Assembly (NCBI GenBank): GCA_028864885.1
Contig: JAGWLR010000011.1
Span: 1 to 53,416 of the forward strand
Source: Burkholderiales bacterium
Lineage (GTDB): Bacteria > Pseudomonadota > Gammaproteobacteria > Burkholderiales > Burkholderiaceae_C
DNA: 53,416 nt
Reading direction: 5' to 3'
The notes under the pieces were generated by a model. The model saw only the letters and a list, made by a program, of their open reading frames with translations. It did not search any database and was not told the origin of the DNA. Both the position numbers and the translations under genes were made by a program. Below are positions 27,907-38,159 of this stretch, in pieces; positions within the stretch are counted from its first letter, which is position 1, and each line of letters begins with the position of its first letter.

Positions 27907-28677
27907 CTAGGTTCTCGTGGAACCCGAAGCTCGATTTTGCTTGCATGAAGGTGGCTGTCGCCTGCTCCACATCAGCACCAATTCGTTGCAGACCCAGACT
28001 GCATAGAAGGCAAAGAGGATGTCGCTGAAAAAATGACCGCCTTGCAGCATACGTCCCAAGCCGACCACCCCACCGGTGACGGTGCCAATCCACAGCCAGC
28101 GGCGGCGCCAGACCGGCCCACAGGTCAGGCCCAAGCTCATCAACGCGAATCCTGCCGCAGCGTGGCTGCTGACAAAGCTTTTGTGGCTACCAGGGTCGTC
28201 GCCCCACTGGAACGGTCCACGATAAGGCACGTTGCCGCCCAGTTCAACCACCTGCACGGGCCGGGGCCGGCCGGCGACGTTTTTGAAGATGCCTTCGATC
28301 AGCAGGCCAGGGCCCAACAAAGCCGACACGAGTGCGAGAACAGCCAGTTGGCGCCAGGGGCCTTGGCATTTGTCTGCCACGTCTGCTTGTCCACGCTTGC
28401 GAAACCAGGCCGCCAAGAAACCATTGAATCCCCATAACAAGGCCAGCAGTAGGATCAATACGCGACCGATCCTTGGCGTCCAGTGATACATCGCCAGCAC
28501 GACCGGATTTTCTCGGTAGACGAAGCCGACCCCAGGCTGAAAGTAATGCGAAGCGATCATCAGGTCAATTTGGGGAAATTTGGCAAACGCGGCGACGCAA
28601 AAAAACAGCAGGGCCCAGATCAGGCGGGTGTCCAACTCCGGGATGTCATGTGGATCCGGCGGCTCGCGGTTTCGCAA
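27907..28677 (-). CDS. PAP2 superfamily membrane phosphatase
   Basis: 256 residues with about six membrane helices. The full three-part acid phosphatase signature is present: K132-x6-R139-P140 (KNVAGRPRP), S-S-H at 170-172 and R209-x5-H215-x3-D219. This predicts hydrolysis of lipid phosphates or diphosphates, such as undecaprenyl diphosphate or lipid A phosphates (LpxE-like), on the periplasmic face. The start is TTG at 28677, one base after the stop of the preceding GT39 gene, so translational coupling is likely. It sits in a leftward cassette of envelope glycosyltransferases. Confidence 0.88.
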   Translation of the reverse strand: MRNREPPDPHDIPELDTRLIWALLFFCVAAFAKFPQIDLMIASHYFQPGVGFVYRENPVVLAMYHWTPRIGRVLILLLALLWGFNGFLAAWFRKRGQADVADKCQGPWRQLAVLALVSALLGPGLLIEGIFKNVAGRPRPVQVVELGGNVPYRGPFQWGDDPGSHKSFVSSHAAAGFALMSLGLTCGPVWRRRWLWIGTVTGGVVGLGRMLQGGHFFSDILFAFYAVWVCNELVLMWSRRQPPSCKQNRASGSTRT

Positions 28678-28678
28678 T

Positions 28679-30397
28679 TCAGCTCTCCGGATCTTGATGG
28701 CCGGCGTTGCCAGTTTGCTCGTCGTAGCTTAGAGCGTCATAGCCCAAAAAGCCTTGCAGCAAGAACACATGGATTTCTACGGCCTGATCAGGGGCCACGG
28801 CAACCTTGACGGATTTCAGCAGACGTGCGCTGCCAAAGCGCTGCAAGATGCCATCCGGGTGTGCGTTGTCGGCCACCAAGATGACACTTTGGCCCACCTT
28901 GTTGGGGAAGCTATAGAGCAACTGATAGTGATCGTGGCGGGTGCCTTTTGGGTTCCACGCATAGGTCTTCACCTTGTGTGATCGCCAGTGGTAAGCCGCT
29001 TGCGTGATCAGCAGACGTTGCGAGGCCAGCACGGGCAGGCCTTGCGTTGCGGGGTCATCCCAGATGGGCTCCAGGGCATCAAAAGCTTCCTGCCAGCCGC
29101 GCATGCGCACCATCACATCCCAGCGCCCAGGCAGTTTGCCGCCGGCCAGGTCATGCAGATGCAAGACCACCGAAGTGAGCAGCAGATTGCTGACAATCAC
29201 CCCTACCAGCCAGCGGTTGGGTTTGGGTGTGGCGATGGGCACCAGTGGCGGGCTCAAGCGGGTGGCGATCAGCATGGTCAGACCGATCATGGCAGGGGCG
29301 GCCCAATTCACATGGGCGTCGGCACGAAGGGCCTGCAAGATCGCGATCAACAGGAGAGGGACGCTGGTGGCCCATAAAAAGCGATAGGACGACACCGACG
29401 CAAAGTAGTGGGCGGAATTCTTGGCGGTGCCCGTGCCGGGAGCGGATTTCCATTGGCTTGGCGGCATCATCTGGCTGGATGCCGCCCACTGGCTGGCCGG
29501 CACCGTGTCAGCGATCTGTGCATAAGGGCGTTTGAACAACCACAGACCCGCCCACACAGCCACAGGCCCCAACATCAGAACCTGCCCCAGCAGAAACACA
29601 AGGGTTGGGCCCAAACCACCAGAGCGACCGCTTTCTGCGGTCAACTGCGCGGTGTGTTCGAATGTCGGGTAGTGATTTTGGGCATTCCACCAAATGTTCG
29701 GTGCCACGACGAGGGCGGCCACGATGATAGCCAACCAGGGGCCCGGGCGTGCGATACCGCGTTGGGGGCCGTGGATGCCCCACAAGGCCCAGATCGCGGT
29801 CAACGCAAACGCTGCCATGGTGTACTTGTCCATGACGCCGATGCCGCAGATCAGGCCACACAAGGCCCACAACTTCAGGCGGTTGGTGAGCTGGGCGCGC
29901 CACAAGGCCCAGGCGGCGAGAGTCCAGCACAACAACAGCGGACCATCGGTACTGACGACCAGGCTAAGCAGGCCCACCATGGGCAGGCTCAAGTACACCC
30001 CTCCGGCTACGATGCCCGTGCGGACGCCGCCTGATGTGGGCCACAAGGCTCGCGCAAATCCAACCATGGCCAATGCTGTGGCTGGGAAGGTAAGCATGCC
30101 CAGTGCCTTGACTCCCAGCACGCCCGACCCAAACAATTTGGTGCTCAGCCAAATCATGCCGGCCACGAAGGGGGGTTTGGAGAAATAGCCCCAATCCAGG
30201 TGACGCGACCAATCCCAGTATTGGGCTTCGTCAAAGAACAGAGAGATGCCACTGAAGTGGATCACCCAGAACCGGTATGCGGTCACCAGGGCGGTGAACG
30301 CCAGCAGCTTGACGAACCTGGGGCCCCAGATGCGCGGCCAGCGATGACTCTTGGCCGGTGTGGGGCGGGTGGCTTGGTCGGCAGTCGACATGGTCAT
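28679..30397 (-). CDS. GT39 family membrane glycosyltransferase
   Basis: 572 residues from the ATG at 30397 (a second ATG at 30391 is equally possible). About 11-12 membrane helices. FFDEAQYWDWSRHLDWGYFSKPPFVAGMIW in the first loop carries the Asp-Glu and KPP signature of GT39/ArnT-like transferases. An unusual hydrophilic insertion (about 300-350, QWAASSQMMPPSQWK) breaks the membrane region. It should take sugar from a polyprenyl phosphate carrier, plausibly made by the GT2 enzyme encoded 13 bases upstream, and pass it to a lipid or envelope acceptor. PAP2 follows directly. Confidence 0.87.
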   Translation of the reverse strand: MTMSTADQATRPTPAKSHRWPRIWGPRFVKLLAFTALVTAYRFWVIHFSGISLFFDEAQYWDWSRHLDWGYFSKPPFVAGMIWLSTKLFGSGVLGVKALGMLTFPATALAMVGFARALWPTSGGVRTGIVAGGVYLSLPMVGLLSLVVSTDGPLLLCWTLAAWALWRAQLTNRLKLWALCGLICGIGVMDKYTMAAFALTAIWALWGIHGPQRGIARPGPWLAIIVAALVVAPNIWWNAQNHYPTFEHTAQLTAESGRSGGLGPTLVFLLGQVLMLGPVAVWAGLWLFKRPYAQIADTVPASQWAASSQMMPPSQWKSAPGTGTAKNSAHYFASVSSYRFLWATSVPLLLIAILQALRADAHVNWAAPAMIGLTMLIATRLSPPLVPIATPKPNRWLVGVIVSNLLLTSVVLHLHDLAGGKLPGRWDVMVRMRGWQEAFDALEPIWDDPATQGLPVLASQRLLITQAAYHWRSHKVKTYAWNPKGTRHDHYQLLYSFPNKVGQSVILVADNAHPDGILQRFGSARLLKSVKVAVAPDQAVEIHVFLLQGFLGYDALSYDEQTGNAGHQDPES

Positions 30398-30410
30398 CCC
30401 TTTGTTGCCC

Positions 30411-31409
30411 TCAAGAAACGTGGTGCCAAGCCTGATCGTCAGCCAGGGCAGGTTTGGTCGACGTGTGGTACGGGGCGATTTCACCGCGGTCGTAGTAGAT
30501 CCGGATCAAGAGTTCGGCAAGCACGCCCGTGGTGAGGAACTGCAGGCCGCCCAGAACGCAGAAAAAGCCCAGCCACAATAAGGGGCGGCCACCGATGTTC
30601 TGCCCCAGCATCTTGAGCACCGCGAGGTAGCTCAGGATGGCCGCACCCAACAGGCCCACACCCAAGCCGACCCCGCCAAAAAAGTGCCCAGGCCGGCCGG
30701 CAAATCGCAGAAAGAAGTTCACGGCCAGCAGGTCGAGCACAACGCGCAAGGTGCGTGAGATGCCGTATTTCGACTCGCCGCGTGTGCGCGCATGGTGACT
30801 GACGGGCAACTCCGCCATCCGTGAGGGCGACGTGACAGTCGCCATCCAGACCGGAATGAATCGGTGCATTTCGCCGTACAGGCTCACCCGTTTGAGCACG
30901 CTGGCTCGGTAAGCCTTCAGGCTGCAGCCGAGATCCTGGAATTCGAGTTGGGTGATGCGATGGATCAGTCGATTGGCGATTTTGGACGGGATCTTGCGCA
31001 GGAACATGCCATCTTGGCGATTTTGCCGCCAGCCCGCGACCAGATCCAGATCTTCCTTGAGCAGCTTTTCAACCAGCTTCGGGATGTCGACGGGGTCATT
31101 TTGCAAATCGCCATCGAGGGTGACGATCACATCGCCCCGAGACGCATCGATGCCAGCCTGCATGGCGGCCGTCTGGCGGAAATTGCGCCACAAATGAACG
31201 GGGCGAACATGGGGGCCACGCAGCCGGGCCTGTTCGTCGAGCGCCTGTTGCGTGCCATCACGGCTGCCGTCGTTGACGATGATGAGTTCCCAGTCGTAGG
31301 GATAGGTATCAAGCGCCCGGTGTACTGCCGTCACGAAGGGCTCGACGTTGTCGACTTCGTTGTACATCGGGACCACGATGGAGAGACGATGCGGCGGGAT
31401 GGCGTTCAT
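30411..31409 (-). CDS. ArnC/GtrB-like polyprenyl-phosphate glycosyltransferase (GT2)
   Basis: 332 residues. A GT-A domain (1-230) has VVPMYNEVDNVEPF, VNDGSRDGT and the DxD metal motif D99-G-D101 in LDGDLQNDP. HARTRGESKYG is the conserved membrane-face motif, and two membrane helices follow at about 240-265 and 275-300. These features define the dolichol-phosphate-mannose-synthase/ArnC/GtrB type, which moves a sugar from a nucleotide carrier to undecaprenyl phosphate on the cytosolic side. The sugar is unknown. It lies between the LPG-like membrane protein gene (19 bases upstream) and the GT39 gene, suggesting a donor-lipid, transport and transfer unit. Confidence 0.92.
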   Translation of the reverse strand: MNAIPPHRLSIVVPMYNEVDNVEPFVTAVHRALDTYPYDWELIIVNDGSRDGTQQALDEQARLRGPHVRPVHLWRNFRQTAAMQAGIDASRGDVIVTLDGDLQNDPVDIPKLVEKLLKEDLDLVAGWRQNRQDGMFLRKIPSKIANRLIHRITQLEFQDLGCSLKAYRASVLKRVSLYGEMHRFIPVWMATVTSPSRMAELPVSHHARTRGESKYGISRTLRVVLDLLAVNFFLRFAGRPGHFFGGVGLGVGLLGAAILSYLAVLKMLGQNIGGRPLLWLGFFCVLGGLQFLTTGVLAELLIRIYYDRGEIAPYHTSTKPALADDQAWHHVS

Positions 31410-31428
31410 CGCGAGTGTCTACTTCGAT

Positions 31429-32409
31429 TCAGGGGCGCGACGTGGGACGTTTGAACTGGCTGAGCAAGGACGCTCCCAGCCCGGCGACCACGGCGCAAAT
31501 CAGAAAACAAATGTGCAAGGCCAGGGCGGCGCTGACGGCGTGCGCCAGTGCCGGAGATGCTTTGGGTAGATGCGTGGCCATGCCAGCCCACACGCCCATT
31601 TCATAGGTGCCGAAGCCAGCCGGGCCCTGCAAAGGGATCACTGCGGCGAGTTCACCGCCCAGAGCCCCAGCCCACGCCTCGGTCCATGAGGTCTGGGTGA
31701 TGGCCGACAGCAAGAACGCACCAGCGCTGAGCTTCAGACACCAGTTGGCGGAGGTCAAGATCCAGGCCATGGGTTGATGGTGGGTGGACTCTGTCAGGGC
31801 GGCCCGCAGTTTGGACAGCACGCGATGAACCCGAGGGCTGTCGGGGATCCTGGGTAGAGCCCAATTGATGGCAAACCACCCCAGAACCGCGGCTAACATG
31901 CCCGCCGCCCGCCACAGAGGAGGCAAGCCAGGCCAGATCAGCATCCCCAGCAGCAGCAACACGATCAGATCCTGGATGCGCATCCACAGCAGGCAGGCCA
32001 CGGCCCGACTAACCGGCATGCCCAGTTCGCGCGACGCCAGCCAGGGGAAACTGAGTTCACCCGCTCGCATGGGCAGCAAATTGATCGCGGCGTTGTGCAT
32101 CAGGATCACGCGAAGCGCGTCGGTCCGCAGGCCCAGCCAGCGTCGTGGGGCCTGGCCCACGGCGTCCAGGTCCATGACCACTTGCAGCCGCGCCGCGCGC
32201 AGCCCATAGCTGATCAGCAGTCCCGACAGTGTCAGCAACCAGGCGCCGAGGGTGGGCTGTCGAAACGCCTCGGCGACCTGTTGAAAAGGGGTGTGCCGCA
32301 ACAGGAGCGCCAACAGCCCCATGCCGAATGCCCACGCCGCAACGAGCTTCAGCTTGCGGTGCCAAAGCGATGGGGGGGGGGCGGTGCTCAGGTCAGTCGA
32401 CGTAGTCAC
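31429..32409 (-). CDS. LPG synthase/UPF0104-like integral membrane protein
   Basis: 326 residues from a GTG at 32409; the frame is open to a TTG at 32466, so the start is uncertain. Eight or so membrane helices. HNAAINLLPMRAGELSFPWLASRELGMP and LQGPAGFGTYEMGV match the lysylphosphatidylglycerol synthase membrane domain family (PF03706-like), here without the soluble aminoacyl transferase domain. Stand-alone members are often found beside GT2/GT39 genes and are suspected to move lipid-linked sugars; that role is inference. It is first in the leftward envelope cassette, 175 bases after the end of the sugar transferase gene and behind its terminator. Confidence 0.83.
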   Translation of the reverse strand: MTTSTDLSTAPPPSLWHRKLKLVAAWAFGMGLLALLLRHTPFQQVAEAFRQPTLGAWLLTLSGLLISYGLRAARLQVVMDLDAVGQAPRRWLGLRTDALRVILMHNAAINLLPMRAGELSFPWLASRELGMPVSRAVACLLWMRIQDLIVLLLLGMLIWPGLPPLWRAAGMLAAVLGWFAINWALPRIPDSPRVHRVLSKLRAALTESTHHQPMAWILTSANWCLKLSAGAFLLSAITQTSWTEAWAGALGGELAAVIPLQGPAGFGTYEMGVWAGMATHLPKASPALAHAVSAALALHICFLICAVVAGLGASLLSQFKRPTSRP

Positions 32410-32507
32410 AAAAAGTGGGCGGCGAATGAGGATCCGCGGATGGGAAAACCCGGTATTGTCCCGCAACTTTTCACACGGGGCGAAGCCATGGGTGTTCTGG
32501 TCAGACG

Positions 32508-32584: not shown

Positions 32585-33988
32585 TTATTGGGCGCCTTCC
32601 CGGAACAGGACCACGCTGACGGTTTCAAACAAAACCAGCAAATCCAGGAAGAGAGAATTGTTCTTCACGTAGTACAGGTCGTATTGGTGCTTGTGCAGTG
32701 CATCCTCTACCGAAGCGCCGTAAGCGTAGCGAACCTGCGCCCAACCGGTCACCCCGGGCTTCACGCTGTGACGGATGTCGTAGTACGGGATTTGTTCGCG
32801 CAACTGGGCCACGAAGGTGGGGCGCTCAGGGCGGGGGCCGACCATGCTCATTTCACCTTTGAGCACGCTGATCAACTGGGGCAGTTCATCGATCCGGGTC
32901 TTGCGAATGAAGGCGCCAACGCGGGTGATACGGGAGTCGTTCTTCGTTGCCCAGACGGCCACGCCATCCTTTTCGGCATCGGTGCGCATGCTGCGGAACT
33001 TCAGGCACATGAAAGTCCGGCCACCCAGGCCGACACGTTCCTGACGGTAGATCACCGGGCCTTTGCTTTCCAGCTTGATGGCGATCATGGTGATCAGCAT
33101 CACTGGCGAAGCGATGAGCAGCAATGTCAACGATGAGAGCACATCGAAGATGCGTTTGGTGACAATTCGAGTGCGGTGTTGAACGAATCCACGGCCATAC
33201 ACCAGCCAGCTGGCCTTGAGACTGTCGATGGGCACTTCACCAGTCGTTTGCTCGTAGAAATCAGCCAGGTCCATCACCGGAACGCCCTGGATGCGAGCCG
33301 ACAGCAGTTGGTCCATCGGCACATTGCCGCCACGTTGTTCTTTCACGGCCACGATGATCTGGTTGACGTCGTGACGTTGAACGATGTCCTCGATGTTCAG
33401 GGCACGCGGGAAAATATTGAAGCGCTTGTCGTCTGTGGGAAGGGAGAGTTCACCAGCCGGATAAAAGCCGACGACAGCGTGGCTGCGCAAGCGACGCGAG
33501 CGCAGATCGGCTGCCACAGCCTGAGCCTCGGAACCCGTGCCCACGATCAGAATACGTTGCTGAAGCAAAGCACCACGCCACGCGGAAAGCAGCAAGCCGC
33601 GAACCAGGATGAGTCCAACCACCAAGTACGCGATGGCAAAGCCCATCAGTTGATGCGCGTGATCCCCCTCAACTTCGGTTTTCACCGCGAGTTGGTAGGC
33701 AATGGGAATGGCCAGCAAGCAGCCCAGCACGGCACGGCCGAGCTTCTCTTTGTTGGTTTTGCGTTGGGCGCCTTCGCGATAAACGCCCACCAGGCCGCAG
33801 TGCAGCGGAATCAGCAAAGCGAAACCCAAACCAGAACGCAGGGCAGAGCCCACGCCCAGATCGCTGGAGCCAGACAAGTGGACCAGGGTCAGGGTGCCGA
33901 GGACCACAGCCAAAAAGCTGGTGAGGCTGTCAGCCAGCAACTCAGCCAGGGTGGCCAGTGAAATGTGATGTTGAAAAACCCGGAGCAT
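32585..33988 (-). CDS. EpsB-type initiating sugar transferase, PEP-CTERM associated
   Basis: 467 residues. Four N-terminal membrane helices, a CoA-binding-like Rossmann middle domain (ILIVGTGSEAQAVAADL) and a C-terminal bacterial sugar transferase domain (from about 275) with KRIFDVLSSLTLLLIASPVM, YRQERVGLGGRTFMCLKFRSM, RKTRIDELPQL, GEMSMVGPRPERP and KPGVTGWAQV. It transfers a sugar-1-phosphate to undecaprenyl phosphate to start a polysaccharide repeat. The length and the FREGAQ end fit the PEP-CTERM-associated subfamily (TIGR03013). A good ribosome site (AGAGG) lies 6 bases before the ATG. The 223-base gap upstream may hold its own promoter; a terminator follows. Confidence 0.92.
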   Translation of the reverse strand: MLRVFQHHISLATLAELLADSLTSFLAVVLGTLTLVHLSGSSDLGVGSALRSGLGFALLIPLHCGLVGVYREGAQRKTNKEKLGRAVLGCLLAIPIAYQLAVKTEVEGDHAHQLMGFAIAYLVVGLILVRGLLLSAWRGALLQQRILIVGTGSEAQAVAADLRSRRLRSHAVVGFYPAGELSLPTDDKRFNIFPRALNIEDIVQRHDVNQIIVAVKEQRGGNVPMDQLLSARIQGVPVMDLADFYEQTTGEVPIDSLKASWLVYGRGFVQHRTRIVTKRIFDVLSSLTLLLIASPVMLITMIAIKLESKGPVIYRQERVGLGGRTFMCLKFRSMRTDAEKDGVAVWATKNDSRITRVGAFIRKTRIDELPQLISVLKGEMSMVGPRPERPTFVAQLREQIPYYDIRHSVKPGVTGWAQVRYAYGASVEDALHKHQYDLYYVKNNSLFLDLLVLFETVSVVLFREGAQ

Positions 33989-34211: not shown

Positions 34212-36404
34212 TTAAAAATGGGTTTTGCCGGGAGAAATCCGAGCTGGCCCCATTTGAGCTTTGGCCCAGGAGATCAAATGCTCGGCCACGCGATTGGCTG
34301 AATGCCCGTCCCAGAATTTCGGAAGGCGTCCTTTTTTACCGCCCCCACGCAGAATTTCGGCCACCGCGCGAGATATCAGGCTGGTATTGCGACCCACGGC
34401 AATATTCGATCCTTGTTCGACGGTGATTCTGCGTTCCGTGAAATTATGAAGCGTCAGGCACGGGACACCCAAAATCGTGGCTTCTTCTTGCAGCGTGCAG
34501 GAATCGGTCAGCACACAGGCGGCTGTGCCAATGAGCCCGATCATCTTGAAGTAAGGGATGGTGGGCAGCAAGATGATGTGCCCCTCAGCCTGCGCCTTGA
34601 TCAAGTCGGGGTGATTGAGCAGGGGGCGAATTCGGTCTGAACCTGCCCAGATCAAGGGCATGTCTCGGCTGATGGTGTGGAACACGTGGGCCAATTCGTG
34701 CAGGCGATCTGGATCTTTGGCCACGCCGCGACCTTCCAGGTAGACCAAGCCGTAGCCTTGCTTGTTTTTGAGGAAATCGGTGTTGTGATTGAACTGCCGC
34801 AGGGTGTACTTCGGGGGCGAGGCCTGAGGCAGCATGCTGCGGATCGTGTCCATCAACACGTTGCCAACAAACTGGATCCGGTCGGCGGGGATGCCTTCGC
34901 GCGCCAGGTTGTCATGGGCCACCCACTCGGAAGTCAGCAGCATGTCAGCCATGTGGTCACACATCATGGCGTTGATTTCCTGTGGGCGACTGCGGTCGAA
35001 GCTGCGCAAGCCCGCCTCCAGGTGCACGATGCGGATGCCAAGGCGTTGCGCGACCAAGCTGGCCGCGAGGCCGACATCGTCTCCGGCTTGCACGATCACC
35101 GCAAACGGTCGGTATTCGGACAGCAGGTGATCGAGCTGGCGCATGCCGTCGGCCAGCAGGTTCACCGGTGTGCCGGCAGGCAGTCGCAGGCGGAAGTGCG
35201 GCTCTTGGAGGCCGGTGTGCTCCATCAACTCGGCTGACAGCTCGAAGTGCCCAGGGCAGTCAATTTGCAAAACCTTGAGCGACGGCACCCCTGCCCGGGT
35301 GGCGAAGGCTTGCTGTAGCGCCGCGGCACGCAGGGCTCCCGCCATGGAGCCAGCAATCAGCAAAAAGTAGAGTCCTGCGGAGCCATTCGTGTCCCCCTGG
35401 TCGTTTACCGAGTAGCTGGGCTCGAATGCCGCGGGGCCCGACGACGCCCAATCGCCAGGTTCCACGCTGTGTGTGAGTGTGGGGATCACCAGGGGGCGAG
35501 GGGCATGGGGGTCGACGTCGGATGGCGCCGACGTGCTGCTGGGGGGGGCATCGGATGCGGGCGCGGCCACGCGCGAGGGCAGCGCTTCGCCGATTTCGGC
35601 GCGAATCTCCATCGCAATGCGTGCGACGGCGGCCGCCGTGATCTCATCGCCTCCGGCCAGGAAGGTGGACAGCAAGATGCGGTTGCACAGCAAATTGATG
35701 CGCCTTGGGGTGCCTGAGGTCCACTGGTACAACTCGTCGAAGGCGTCGTCATCAAACCGGGGGTGCTCTCCGGTCCAGCCGACCTTGGTCAGCCGGTGCT
35801 CGACGTAACGACGGGTTTCCTCGCGGTCCATCGGGCCCAGGTGATATGACGCGATGACACGTTGGCGAAGCTGTTCGAGGCTGCGCGACAGCAGCATTTC
35901 GCGCAGCTCGGGCTGACCAATCAAAAAACTTTGCAGCAGCGCCTGGTTGCCGTACTGGAAGTTCGACAACATGCGAAGCTCTTCGATCGCATCCCGGCTC
36001 AGGTTTTGTGCTTCATCGACGATGAGCACCGCCCGCTTATTCTGCGTGGCCAGCAGTGTCAGATAGGCTTCGAGGGTCGCGATCAGCTCGGCCTTGGAGT
36101 TGCCTTTGAGTGGAATACCAAAGGCCGTGATGGCCGAGCGAAGCAGGTCGCCAGCCTCCAGTTGGGTGCTCACCAACTGGGCTGCCACCACCTTTTCAGA
36201 GTCGATGTCGCTCAACAACGTGCGGACCAGCGTGGTCTTGCCCGCGCCGATGTCGCCTGTGACGACGATGAAGCCTTCCGCCTGGTAAAGGCCGAACTTC
36301 AGGTAAGACAGTGCGCTGCTGTGACCCTTGCTCCCGAAGTAAAAACTGGGGTCGGGGTTGAGCAGGAAAGGGGGGCTGGAAAAGCCGAAGTAGGTTTCGT
36401 ACAT
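34212..36404 (-). CDS. PEP-CTERM-locus ATPase fused to UDP-GlcNAc 2-epimerase-like domain
   Basis: 730 residues in one uninterrupted frame. Residues 1-270 are an ExeA/GspA-type AAA ATPase of the PEP-CTERM-locus kind (TIGR03015-like): start MYETYFGFSSPPF, Walker A GDIGAGKTT (50-58), Walker B VLIVDEAQ (126-133), TSGTPRRINLLC (229-240). A Pro/Ser/Ala linker spans 275-340. Residues 345-720 are a WecB-like fold: AGDD (440-443), HLEAGLR (461-467), PQEIN (474-478), TDSCTLQEEATILGVPCLTL (633-652). Several catalytic positions differ from WecB: GTRPE is GSMAG (352-356), the His of the GHRRE motif is Glu557, and EANR is EINA. The two parts are usually separate neighbouring genes. It follows the outer membrane protein gene by 9 bases without a clear ribosome site. 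Confidence 0.9.
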   Translation of the reverse strand: MYETYFGFSSPPFLLNPDPSFYFGSKGHSSALSYLKFGLYQAEGFIVVTGDIGAGKTTLVRTLLSDIDSEKVVAAQLVSTQLEAGDLLRSAITAFGIPLKGNSKAELIATLEAYLTLLATQNKRAVLIVDEAQNLSRDAIEELRMLSNFQYGNQALLQSFLIGQPELREMLLSRSLEQLRQRVIASYHLGPMDREETRRYVEHRLTKVGWTGEHPRFDDDAFDELYQWTSGTPRRINLLCNRILLSTFLAGGDEITAAAVARIAMEIRAEIGEALPSRVAAPASDAPPSSTSAPSDVDPHAPRPLVIPTLTHSVEPGDWASSGPAAFEPSYSVNDQGDTNGSAGLYFLLIAGSMAGALRAAALQQAFATRAGVPSLKVLQIDCPGHFELSAELMEHTGLQEPHFRLRLPAGTPVNLLADGMRQLDHLLSEYRPFAVIVQAGDDVGLAASLVAQRLGIRIVHLEAGLRSFDRSRPQEINAMMCDHMADMLLTSEWVAHDNLAREGIPADRIQFVGNVLMDTIRSMLPQASPPKYTLRQFNHNTDFLKNKQGYGLVYLEGRGVAKDPDRLHELAHVFHTISRDMPLIWAGSDRIRPLLNHPDLIKAQAEGHIILLPTIPYFKMIGLIGTAACVLTDSCTLQEEATILGVPCLTLHNFTERRITVEQGSNIAVGRNTSLISRAVAEILRGGGKKGRLPKFWDGHSANRVAEHLISWAKAQMGPARISPGKTHF

Positions 36405-36413
36405 CTGATGAGG

Positions 36414-37961
36414 TCAGAACCGATAGCCCAGGCCTGCGAAGGCCGCAGATTCATCGCTGTCACCGGTTTTGGTGCTGTGCGAGATTTGTCTGCGTAGCCC
36501 GAAGGTGGCAGACGTGCGGGGGGCAAGATCGGTGGAGTAGGCGGTGCTCCAGCTGAAGCTGCGTGCGAATTCGTAGGGCTGGCCGACCGTGCTGTTGTTC
36601 AGTCGGTTCCAGCGCAAGTTCGCAATCAGCCGGGAGGTGGGGGTGAGCAGGTGGTTTAGCTCGCTGTAAAAGAAGTACTGCCGGCTGGTAGAGGCCGCAG
36701 TCAACAGTGCCACCGAGGCGGTGAGCGGTTCGGCATCGATGCGGCCCGCGGTCAAGGTCAAGGTGTTGCGCCGCCCCATGACGACCATGCGTCCGGACGC
36801 TTCTTTGCGCAACTGAGCATTGAGGTTGTAGATGTCTCGGATGCCGTTGACACTGGTGGTCAGCTTCTTGGTGGTGATGATGTCGTCAACCGCCTTGGCC
36901 CGTTCGGCAGGATCGGGGATGTAGGTCGTCAACATCGAGTCAAAGAGGTCGCGGACCGTGCTGCCTTGCGCCACGGTACCCAGCGAAGACGCGTAGGTGG
37001 TGGCGACTCGGTTGAACGTGCCGCTGAAAGCCAGCCAAGGCATGCGGTGGCTGGCGTTGACCTGCCAGGCTTGACCGAAGAAGCGGCGTTCAACCTGAGC
37101 GTCGAGCAAGGTGCGTTCTTCAGGTGTCCAACGCAGCAGCCAGCCATGGACACTGTCGTTGTAAGAGTCGAGCAAGACCTTGTCTGATTCTCGTCCGATC
37201 AGGGCGCCGACGATCAGATCAGGAGTCAGGGCGTAGAGGCCCTTGGCTCGGCCAATCGATTGAGTCAGAACGGGATCGCTTTGGCCTGTGACATGGGTGG
37301 TCTGGTGATTCGCACCGATTTCATAGCCAAAAGGCACGGGGCGACGATCGAGCGAGGCCTGTCCAGTCGTGACCTGGGTGTCGGGTCGGTCTGGGGTGTT
37401 GGATCCGATCCGGTTGGAGTGCACCCAGGACTGATCCACCCGCGCCTTGACGGTGGTTTCGGCCGACAGTTTGTGATCCAGGAAGGGCGAAAGCCGCCAT
37501 TCGGTGGTGGAGTAGCCGCGCTGTATCAGGCCGCTATCGGAGTTGCCGGCGTAGAGATCAGGCTCTTGTCTGGCGCTCCAGGCCGCTTCGATGCCCAGGC
37601 CGGTGTCGTGAGATTCGGTTCGGCCTAGCAACTGGCCGGTGGGGATCACCTGATTGGGTCGGGTCTTCTTGCTGTAGTAGTAGGCGTCGGCCTTGACATC
37701 GCCCTGAACCAGGCTGTTGTTGCCTCTGGCATTGACTTTGAGTCCGGGAGAGACCTGGGTCACCCATTCGCGGGTTTGGCTGCCAAAGCTGGTGGTGCCG
37801 GGCACGTTAGTCTGGTGGACGTAGGACTCGAGCACGTCCACTGACGGTTGGATCACCAAAGGCTCAGCAAGGGCCGTGCTTGCCAGGACCGCCCCAGCCA
37901 GGGGAGCAAGCTGGAAAGGCCGGCGGCGTTGGCGGTTTGCGGCTGGGGTGGCAGTGATCAT
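36414..37961 (-). CDS. TIGR03016-like outer membrane protein of PEP-CTERM loci
   Basis: 515 residues. A Tat- or Sec-like signal (RQRRRPFQLAPLAGAVLAST, cleavage after ALA near 32) is followed by VIQPSVDVLESYVHQTN and then alternating amphipathic strands throughout, ending in the barrel-closing GLGYRF with terminal Phe. This is the layout of the beta-barrel proteins found in exosortase-linked EPS loci (TIGR03016), thought to help export the polysaccharide. It is first of the three-gene leftward locus and a weak ribosome site (AGGAC) precedes the ATG. No charged catalytic motif is evident. An annotation as capsule or general porin is less likely given the adjoining ATPase. Confidence 0.85.
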   Translation of the reverse strand: MITATPAANRQRRRPFQLAPLAGAVLASTALAEPLVIQPSVDVLESYVHQTNVPGTTSFGSQTREWVTQVSPGLKVNARGNNSLVQGDVKADAYYYSKKTRPNQVIPTGQLLGRTESHDTGLGIEAAWSARQEPDLYAGNSDSGLIQRGYSTTEWRLSPFLDHKLSAETTVKARVDQSWVHSNRIGSNTPDRPDTQVTTGQASLDRRPVPFGYEIGANHQTTHVTGQSDPVLTQSIGRAKGLYALTPDLIVGALIGRESDKVLLDSYNDSVHGWLLRWTPEERTLLDAQVERRFFGQAWQVNASHRMPWLAFSGTFNRVATTYASSLGTVAQGSTVRDLFDSMLTTYIPDPAERAKAVDDIITTKKLTTSVNGIRDIYNLNAQLRKEASGRMVVMGRRNTLTLTAGRIDAEPLTASVALLTAASTSRQYFFYSELNHLLTPTSRLIANLRWNRLNNSTVGQPYEFARSFSWSTAYSTDLAPRTSATFGLRRQISHSTKTGDSDESAAFAGLGYRF

Positions 37962-38159
37962 GAGGTCCTGTCGGTTGGGAACGTGTCAGGCAGATACAAA
38001 TCGCAAATCCTACAGGAGCCACTTTTGGCGAGGCAAGACCTCAGATGGACGGGGCTCGGGCAAGAGCCACCAGCGCCTGGGGCGGATATGAGCGGTTATG
38101 CTTGCTGCCGATTTTGTTAGAAAAATGCCTTGTGCGCCCTGTTATTTGAAAGGAAAAAC

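Follow-up and report, generated by a model that had tools for sequence, protein, structure and literature searches.

A TIGR03015-type ATPase fused to an apparent pseudo-epimerase in Aquabacterium and related genera

The XrtA/PEP-CTERM system-associated ATPases of family TIGR03015 are presumably ExeA-like AAA ATPases, and we know of no role assigned to them in exopolysaccharide (EPS) loci. In the excerpted account of the Rubrivivax gelatinosus biofilm cluster (PMC3684757), the ATPase and epsC are separate genes standing in the same gene order as at the locus analysed here. For the WecB-type UDP-GlcNAc 2-epimerases, residue roles were taken from excerpts of two reports (PMC10622841 and PMC11464976), in which Asp95 is the catalytic base and Ser290 and Glu296 provide phosphate and ribose contacts; exchange of His213 for Asn alone in the E. 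coli enzyme is given there as lowering kcat,app 50-fold (PMC10622841). Pseudoenzymes have precedent in EPS assembly: EcpK, a BY pseudokinase of Myxococcus xanthus, is proposed in the excerpted report (PMC12004946) to be a scaffold for the polysaccharide co-polymerase (PCP) in a Wzx/Wzy EPS pathway.

The window, a 53,416-nucleotide stretch of DNA from a Burkholderiales bacterium (contig JAGWLR010000011.1), contains a gene that unites an ATPase and a WecB-like domain in a single open frame of 730 codons (730 amino acids plus stop; Table 1). The preliminary description had recognized this uninterrupted frame and both of its halves, leaving out only the strand, which is minus, and profile searches bear it out. 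Residues 1–270 scored 364.7 bits against TIGR03015, above the NCBIfam cut-off of 324.5, and the Walker A and Walker B motifs are intact as had been described. The WecB-like half spans residues ~345–715 and scored 185 bits against Pfam Epimerase_2 (PF02350, gathering score 30.6), though residues 374–710 reached only 151.1 bits against the WecB profile TIGR00236, below its cut-off of 210.15. The closest solved structure in a PDB search was the M. jannaschii 2-epimerase 4neq (E 3e-40). In 22 Aquabacterium sequences, 190 of 272 positions of the ATPase half are invariant; for the linker (residues 280–335, Aquabacterium sequences) the count is 1 of 56.

Table 1. Features of the fusion gene and its neighbours, in window coordinates; residue equivalences refer to E. 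coli WecB
Feature	Coordinates	Strand	Basis
Fusion gene: TIGR03015 AAA ATPase and degenerate WecB-like (apparent pseudo-epimerase) domain	34212..36404	-	ORF, profile matches; same architecture in relatives
ATPase half, residues 1–272	35589..36404	-	TIGR03015 365 bits, Walker motifs
Walker A, residues 50–57, GDIGAGKT	36234..36257	-	intact in translation
Walker B, residues 127–132, LIVDEA	36009..36026	-	intact in translation
Linker, residues 273–344, Pro/Ala/Ser-rich	35373..35588	-	sequence, conservation
Apparent pseudo-epimerase half, residues 345–730 (WecB/Epimerase_2 family by sequence)	34215..35372	-	Pfam, TIGR00236, PDB matches
Gly441, position of catalytic base Asp95	35082..35084	-	alignment
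Gln475, position of Glu131	34980..34982	-	alignment
Glu557, at the His213 position, a site that varies in relatives	34734..34736	-	alignment
Cys636-Thr637, position of GG of SDSGG	34494..34499	-	alignment
TIGR03016 outer-membrane protein, directly upstream of fusion, 9-base gap	36414..37961	-	profile; fusion neighbour in 19/33 loci
TIGR03013 EpsB_2 sugar transferase, downstream neighbour	32585..33988	-	profile; near fusion in 15/33 loci

The fusion was present in 26 of 42 genomes of Aquabacterium, the genus to which the window's genome belongs, as 24 complete copies and two cut by contig ends (L023 and L025, left out of the residue counts). The doubt that a sequencing error had merged two frames is thereby answered: because 24 separate genomes carry the complete fusion, cultured strains among them (A. 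commune DSM 11901 and A. parvum B6), an assembly error or frameshift artefact was ruled out. The fusion-bearing group consists of freshwater bacteria. Beyond the genus, a search for the same two-domain architecture among the long-frame candidates that were fetched brought up 25 further fusion proteins. They come from 22 genomes and are spread over 11 other genera of the same family. Of 399 genomes sampled from the family, 113 had a match to the epimerase half at E ≤ 1e-30, and at least 27 carry a fusion, counting five of Aquabacterium and leaving out matches below 90 bits. Among 399 genomes sampled from the order, eight gave matches at E ≤ 1e-112, a limit that would miss more diverged fusions; two of these (G000 and G305) were uninterrupted, both from the window's family, so that the sample held no uninterrupted fusion outside this family at that limit. 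In the other six, the ATPase and epimerase genes abut in frame with a single stop between them. At class level (369 genomes), 20 long-frame places were chosen in the matches listed: one ATPase frame (L274) had an epimerase match and the other 19 had none in frame, L290 having a separate epimerase gene nearby. None of 22 plasmid records spanned 80% of the fusion query.

That the two are separate adjacent genes elsewhere, as stated in the preliminary description, agrees with the R. gelatinosus cluster as excerpted (PMC3684757) and with 48 of 58 loci of standalone relatives in the order (L034, L035 and L127–L182), in which a TIGR03015-type ATPase in its own frame adjoins the epimerase gene on the same strand, often overlapping it. 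An ATPase match was absent from the fetched stretch in the remaining 10 of the 58.

Some genomes carry more than one such gene. G624 has two fusion genes ~4 kb apart (L252, 4588–6798 and 8703–10667), and a member of the EpsB_2 cluster (c5) lies in the interval. G811 (L247/L266) and G692 (L248/L267) have two fusion paralogues each, with L266 and L267 in an EPS operon and L247 and L248 beside genes labelled by eye as formate-dehydrogenase-like. G305, the genome with the fusion of L126, has a further long frame of 682 residues. Other long C-terminal tails, e.g. with a transmembrane stretch, were seen in the TIGR03015-like ATPases of L275–L293. The ends of these tails, labelled by eye, we take to be OmpA-like or nuclear-transport-factor-like. 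Added C-terminal parts thus recur in TIGR03015-like ATPases.

The active site was compared in an alignment of E. coli K-12 WecB, 77 standalone WecBs picked by similarity to the window's epimerase half (an earlier residue table used 57 rows) and 49 fusions (24 from Aquabacterium, 25 from other genera). All four of Asp95, Glu117, Glu131 and His213 are present in 77/77 standalone proteins and in 0/49 fusions, which keep at most two of the four. The standalone proteins are also invariant (77/77) at Arg135, Arg214, Ser290, Gly292 and Glu296 and nearly so at Arg10 (76/77). Retention in the fusions of Aquabacterium and of the other genera, respectively, is 0/24 (all Gly) and 4/25 for Asp95, 24/24 and 6/25 for Glu117, 0/24 and 2/25 for Glu131, 3/24 and 0/25 for His213, 0/24 and 1/25 for Arg214, 1/24 and 18/25 for Arg135, 0/24 and 0/25 for Gly292, 22/24 and 4/25 for Arg10, 22/24 and 13/25 for Ser290, and 24/24 and 16/25 for Glu296. 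In the window's protein, Glu463, the equivalent of Glu117, is the sole survivor of the four, and the EAGLR, QEE and TER motifs are retained. Asp95, Glu117 and Glu131 had all been described as kept; this stands for Glu117 only, since Asp442 and Glu476, read as Asp95 and Glu131, are off by one (they align with positions 96 and 132) and the true equivalents are Gly441 and Gln475. The changes described at Arg10 (to Met354), Arg135 (to Ala479), His213 (to Glu557) and the GG pair (to Cys636-Thr637) were reproduced by alignment with E. coli WecB, the first being limited, among the 24 Aquabacterium fusions, to the window and its nearest relative. Judged by these residues, the epimerase half of the fusions looks like a pseudoenzyme.

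That the half is an enzyme acting on a new substrate or by new chemistry is a very unlikely alternative, to which the preliminary description had given room. Aquabacterium fusions do have conserved new pocket residues (Gly95 and Asp97 in 24/24, Gln131 in 22/24), and 24 of the 26 fusion genomes contain no second Epimerase_2 protein; of the 16 Aquabacterium genomes without the fusion, 12 lack Epimerase_2 proteins altogether and the remaining four carry an ordinary standalone one. Against new chemistry, the base Asp95 is gone in 45 of 49 fusions, and the same positions carry different residues in different fusion genera. The His-to-Glu exchange, whose conservation the preliminary description had proposed to check, proved not to be conserved: the position holds Gln in 14, Thr in three, His in three, Glu in two and Ser in two of the 24 Aquabacterium fusions. 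Glu557 as a new catalytic residue was accordingly ruled out; the position varies, Glu being one of its states and no pointer to a new Glu-based enzyme.

The loss extends to the pocket in which 2-epimerases bind their allosteric effector UDP-GlcNAc. Gln38, His39, Arg214 and His246 are replaced by Cys, Pro, Gly and Ser in the window's protein. Gln38 is present in 77/77 standalone proteins, 0/24 Aquabacterium fusions and 0/25 other fusions; of the 49 fusions, one retains His39 and one Arg214. Of 109 near-invariant columns of the standalone WecBs, 43 are replaced in Aquabacterium and 47 in fusions of the other genera, and the loss at the effector pocket exceeds that of random column sets: among 5000 such sets, the fraction as low was 0.0014 for Aquabacterium and 0.0000 elsewhere, in a test for which E. 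coli positions 248 and 308 of the residue sets were assigned by eye. On the evidence of the alignment, the allosteric pocket is selectively lost in the fusions. For this reason, a sensor of UDP-GlcNAc, one of the two roles raised in the preliminary description, is disfavoured. Gating of the ATPase by UDP-sugars would likewise not be the favoured reading.

A broader form of the idea is that the remodelled Aquabacterium active site binds a uridine nucleotide or UDP-sugar and thereby switches the ATPase, which we regard as unlikely. In its favour are the high retention of Ser290, Glu296, Glu117 and Arg10 in Aquabacterium and the constraint on the catalytic-floor positions there, which keep one majority residue, partly of new identity, with a mean majority of 0.94, at the 97th percentile of random sets, where ancestral invariants average 0.80. 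This conservation hints at a remaining ligand, and with the uridine/phosphate floor (Ser290 and Glu296) persisting, nucleotide binding may be preserved in this genus. Loss of the base is by itself no argument against binding, since both UDP-GlcNAc and UDP co-purify with D98N, a catalytic-base mutant of the enzyme from T. thermophilus, according to the excerpted report (PMC10622841). Against it stand the selective loss of the effector pocket, the absence of Gly292 from all 49 fusions and of Arg10 from the window's own protein, and the pattern in the other genera, where Ser290 and Glu296 are only partly retained and the catalytic floor shows no special constraint (12th percentile of random sets), so that binding of a ligand is not conserved across the architecture. 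It is more doubtful still that such a uridine-nucleotide pocket signals precursor supply to the AAA ATPase joined to it, coupling EPS assembly to sugar-nucleotide pools in one polypeptide; if it did, the fusions would be polysaccharide export ATPases of a pseudoenzyme-regulated class, which took the place of the XrtA-linked type.

Among the best 30 (closest) of 179 pairs, dN/dS was 0–0.39 for the N part and 0.006–0.35 for the C part of the epimerase half, compared to 0.05–1.09 for the linker and 0.005–0.12 for the ATPase. The epimerase half is therefore under purifying selection, and the linker is drifting. A tolerated relic, in which the fused half decays without a role, would be in keeping with the replaced ancestral invariants and with the long branches in the epimerase tree, but it is highly improbable given dN/dS values well below 1 beside a drifting linker, and given a WecB-like half that is still recognizable in 49 fusion proteins from 12 genera.

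In the neighbourhoods of 33 fusion loci, clusters of a PCP (22 loci), a BY-kinase (21), a Wza-like export protein (19), the TIGR03016 outer-membrane protein (19) and EpsB_2 (15) recur, in an order that differs between genera; the names of the first three families were taken from L036 (TIGR03007, TIGR03018 and TIGR03027). In Aquabacterium, the fusion is a member of an EPS operon with export protein, co-polymerase, tyrosine kinase, outer-membrane protein and EpsB_2. Nine of the 33 loci, none from Aquabacterium, have none of these five neighbours (L126, L243, L245, L247, L248, L251, L261, L263 and L268), so the architecture is not always tied to EPS. At the first five of these, the fusion lies beside genes resembling formate dehydrogenase (label by eye).

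The EPS genes of the window's genome are split over two contigs, with export protein, PCP and kinase on C110 and outer-membrane protein, fusion and EpsB_2 in the window (36414–38000 of the window versus L302 4947–8061). The PCP on C110 scored 497 bits against TIGR03007, and the kinase and export protein beside it share 58% and 78% identity with their counterparts in relatives such as L036. Together, the two contigs hold the gene list of an XrtA/PEP-CTERM locus (TIGR03016, TIGR03013, TIGR03007 and homologues of TIGR03018/TIGR03027). In the nearest relative (L045), the contig starts with a kinase-like end followed by the outer-membrane protein. After EpsB_2, the window carries flippase-like (LPG_synthase_TM), GT2, PMT_2 glycosyltransferase and PAP2 genes (27907–32466, minus strand), and the recurrence of this set in the same order at other Aquabacterium loci suggests a linked lipid-glycosylation set.

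The preliminary description had referred to PEP-CTERM EPS loci; the locus is not of the XrtA type, though exosortases of another kind are encoded in the window's genome (130 and 107 bits against TIGR02602, with a cut-off of 105.55). XrtA (TIGR03109) was above its cut-off in 0/26 Aquabacterium fusion genomes, the best score in the window's genome being 134.6 bits against a cut-off of 208, and in six of the 42 genus genomes, all among the 16 without the fusion. TIGR03007 exceeded its cut-off in 31 of the 42, namely 25/26 with the fusion (the exception is 71% complete), 6/6 with XrtA and 0/10 with neither. From the counts of XrtA and TIGR03007 together, the Aquabacterium fusion marks an EPS locus without XrtA. 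Two of the six XrtA-bearing genomes (G006 and G024) have no Epimerase_2 match, so the epimerase may be dispensable to the XrtA-type locus.

In an ATPase tree, 35 fused rows fall on one side of a branch (SH-aLRT 99) and 63 separate rows on the other; in an epimerase tree, 36 fused and 77 separate rows are likewise divided (SH-aLRT 100). A single fusion event would explain all fusions placed in the trees, with caution over long branches and root, as the trees were quick ones with long-branch warnings and an unknown root, each omitting 13 or 14 near-duplicate fusions. The closest kin of the window's epimerase half are mostly wecB genes beside TIGR03015 ATPases. An independent TIGR03015–WecB fusion of 739 residues occurs in another order of the class (G882, L274:4890–7106, plus strand). 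It has the domain order and similar length of the window's protein; in contrast to the latter, its epimerase half is intact at 17/17 checked positions (311 bits to TIGR00236) and its ATPase groups with separate genes in the tree. The notion that fusion as such always costs catalysis was rejected because L274 is both fused and intact, and L274 is a natural comparator for the degenerate fusions.

We consider it probable that the epimerase half is a retained pseudo-epimerase, catalytically dead, that acts as a scaffold or regulator of the attached ATPase. Retention of the fold is suggested by sequence family and selection, loss of catalysis by the missing residues, and a scaffold role by analogy to the pseudokinase EcpK as described in the excerpt (PMC12004946). 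In the mechanism we propose, neighbouring ancestral EPS genes, a TIGR03015 ATPase followed by wecB, would have fused in the window's family, once according to the trees. The fused WecB half would then have lost the 2-epimerase chemistry and the UDP-GlcNAc effector pocket and stayed as a folded pseudo-epimerase. The product would be a cytoplasmic AAA ATPase scaffolded or regulated by its own C-terminal GT-B-type domain, possibly through dimerization or through docking to the PCP/tyrosine-kinase base or a glycosyltransferase, in a Wzx/Wzy-type EPS assembly independent of XrtA. The conservation of the Aquabacterium catalytic floor, the nine loci without EPS neighbours and the lone Epimerase_2 protein in 24 of 26 genomes count against a pseudo-epimerase scaffold.

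No NCBIfam model of the fused architecture was listed for the four degenerate fusions scanned (the window's, L126, L257 and L250), which, apart from weaker matches, scored above the TIGR03015 cut-off in three cases, below it in L126, and below that of TIGR00236 in all. The literature search found no description of an ATPase–epimerase fusion, though the print record may still hold one; in the literature searched, no paper mentions TIGR03015, pairs a secretion ATPase with PEP-CTERM, joins a pseudoenzyme with an epimerase name, or joins Aquabacterium with exosortase and exopolysaccharide. Both component kinds are already known, and what is new is the joining of a pseudoenzyme domain to an established ATPase family. 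With the ATPase tied in 12 genera to an epimerase that is apparently dead yet preserved, clues to the ATPase's target can be sought on the surface by which the pseudo-epimerase would contact a partner. In Aquabacterium, the fusion is confined to genomes in which XrtA was not found. If the fusion genomes were annotated by domain name (UDP-GlcNAc 2-epimerase), they would be credited wrongly with UDP-ManNAc synthesis.

Compared to known systems, the window's protein resembles the TIGR03015 ATPases in its N-terminal 270 residues, which score above the cut-off (some fusions of other genera, such as L126, do not), in its Walker A and B motifs and in the TIGR03016 gene directly upstream, and it differs from them by the fused C-terminal half and by a genome in which no XrtA was found. 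That half is by sequence a member of the WecB/MnaA non-hydrolyzing UDP-GlcNAc 2-epimerases (TIGR00236, PF02350), yet it lacks the catalytic base, Glu131, His213, Arg214, the GG pair and the effector pocket, and scores 151 bits against a cut-off of 210. EcpK differs in being a pseudokinase rather than a pseudo-epimerase, with no ATPase fusion reported in the excerpt (PMC12004946); the likeness, by analogy, would be that of a dead enzyme kept in a Wzx/Wzy EPS pathway.
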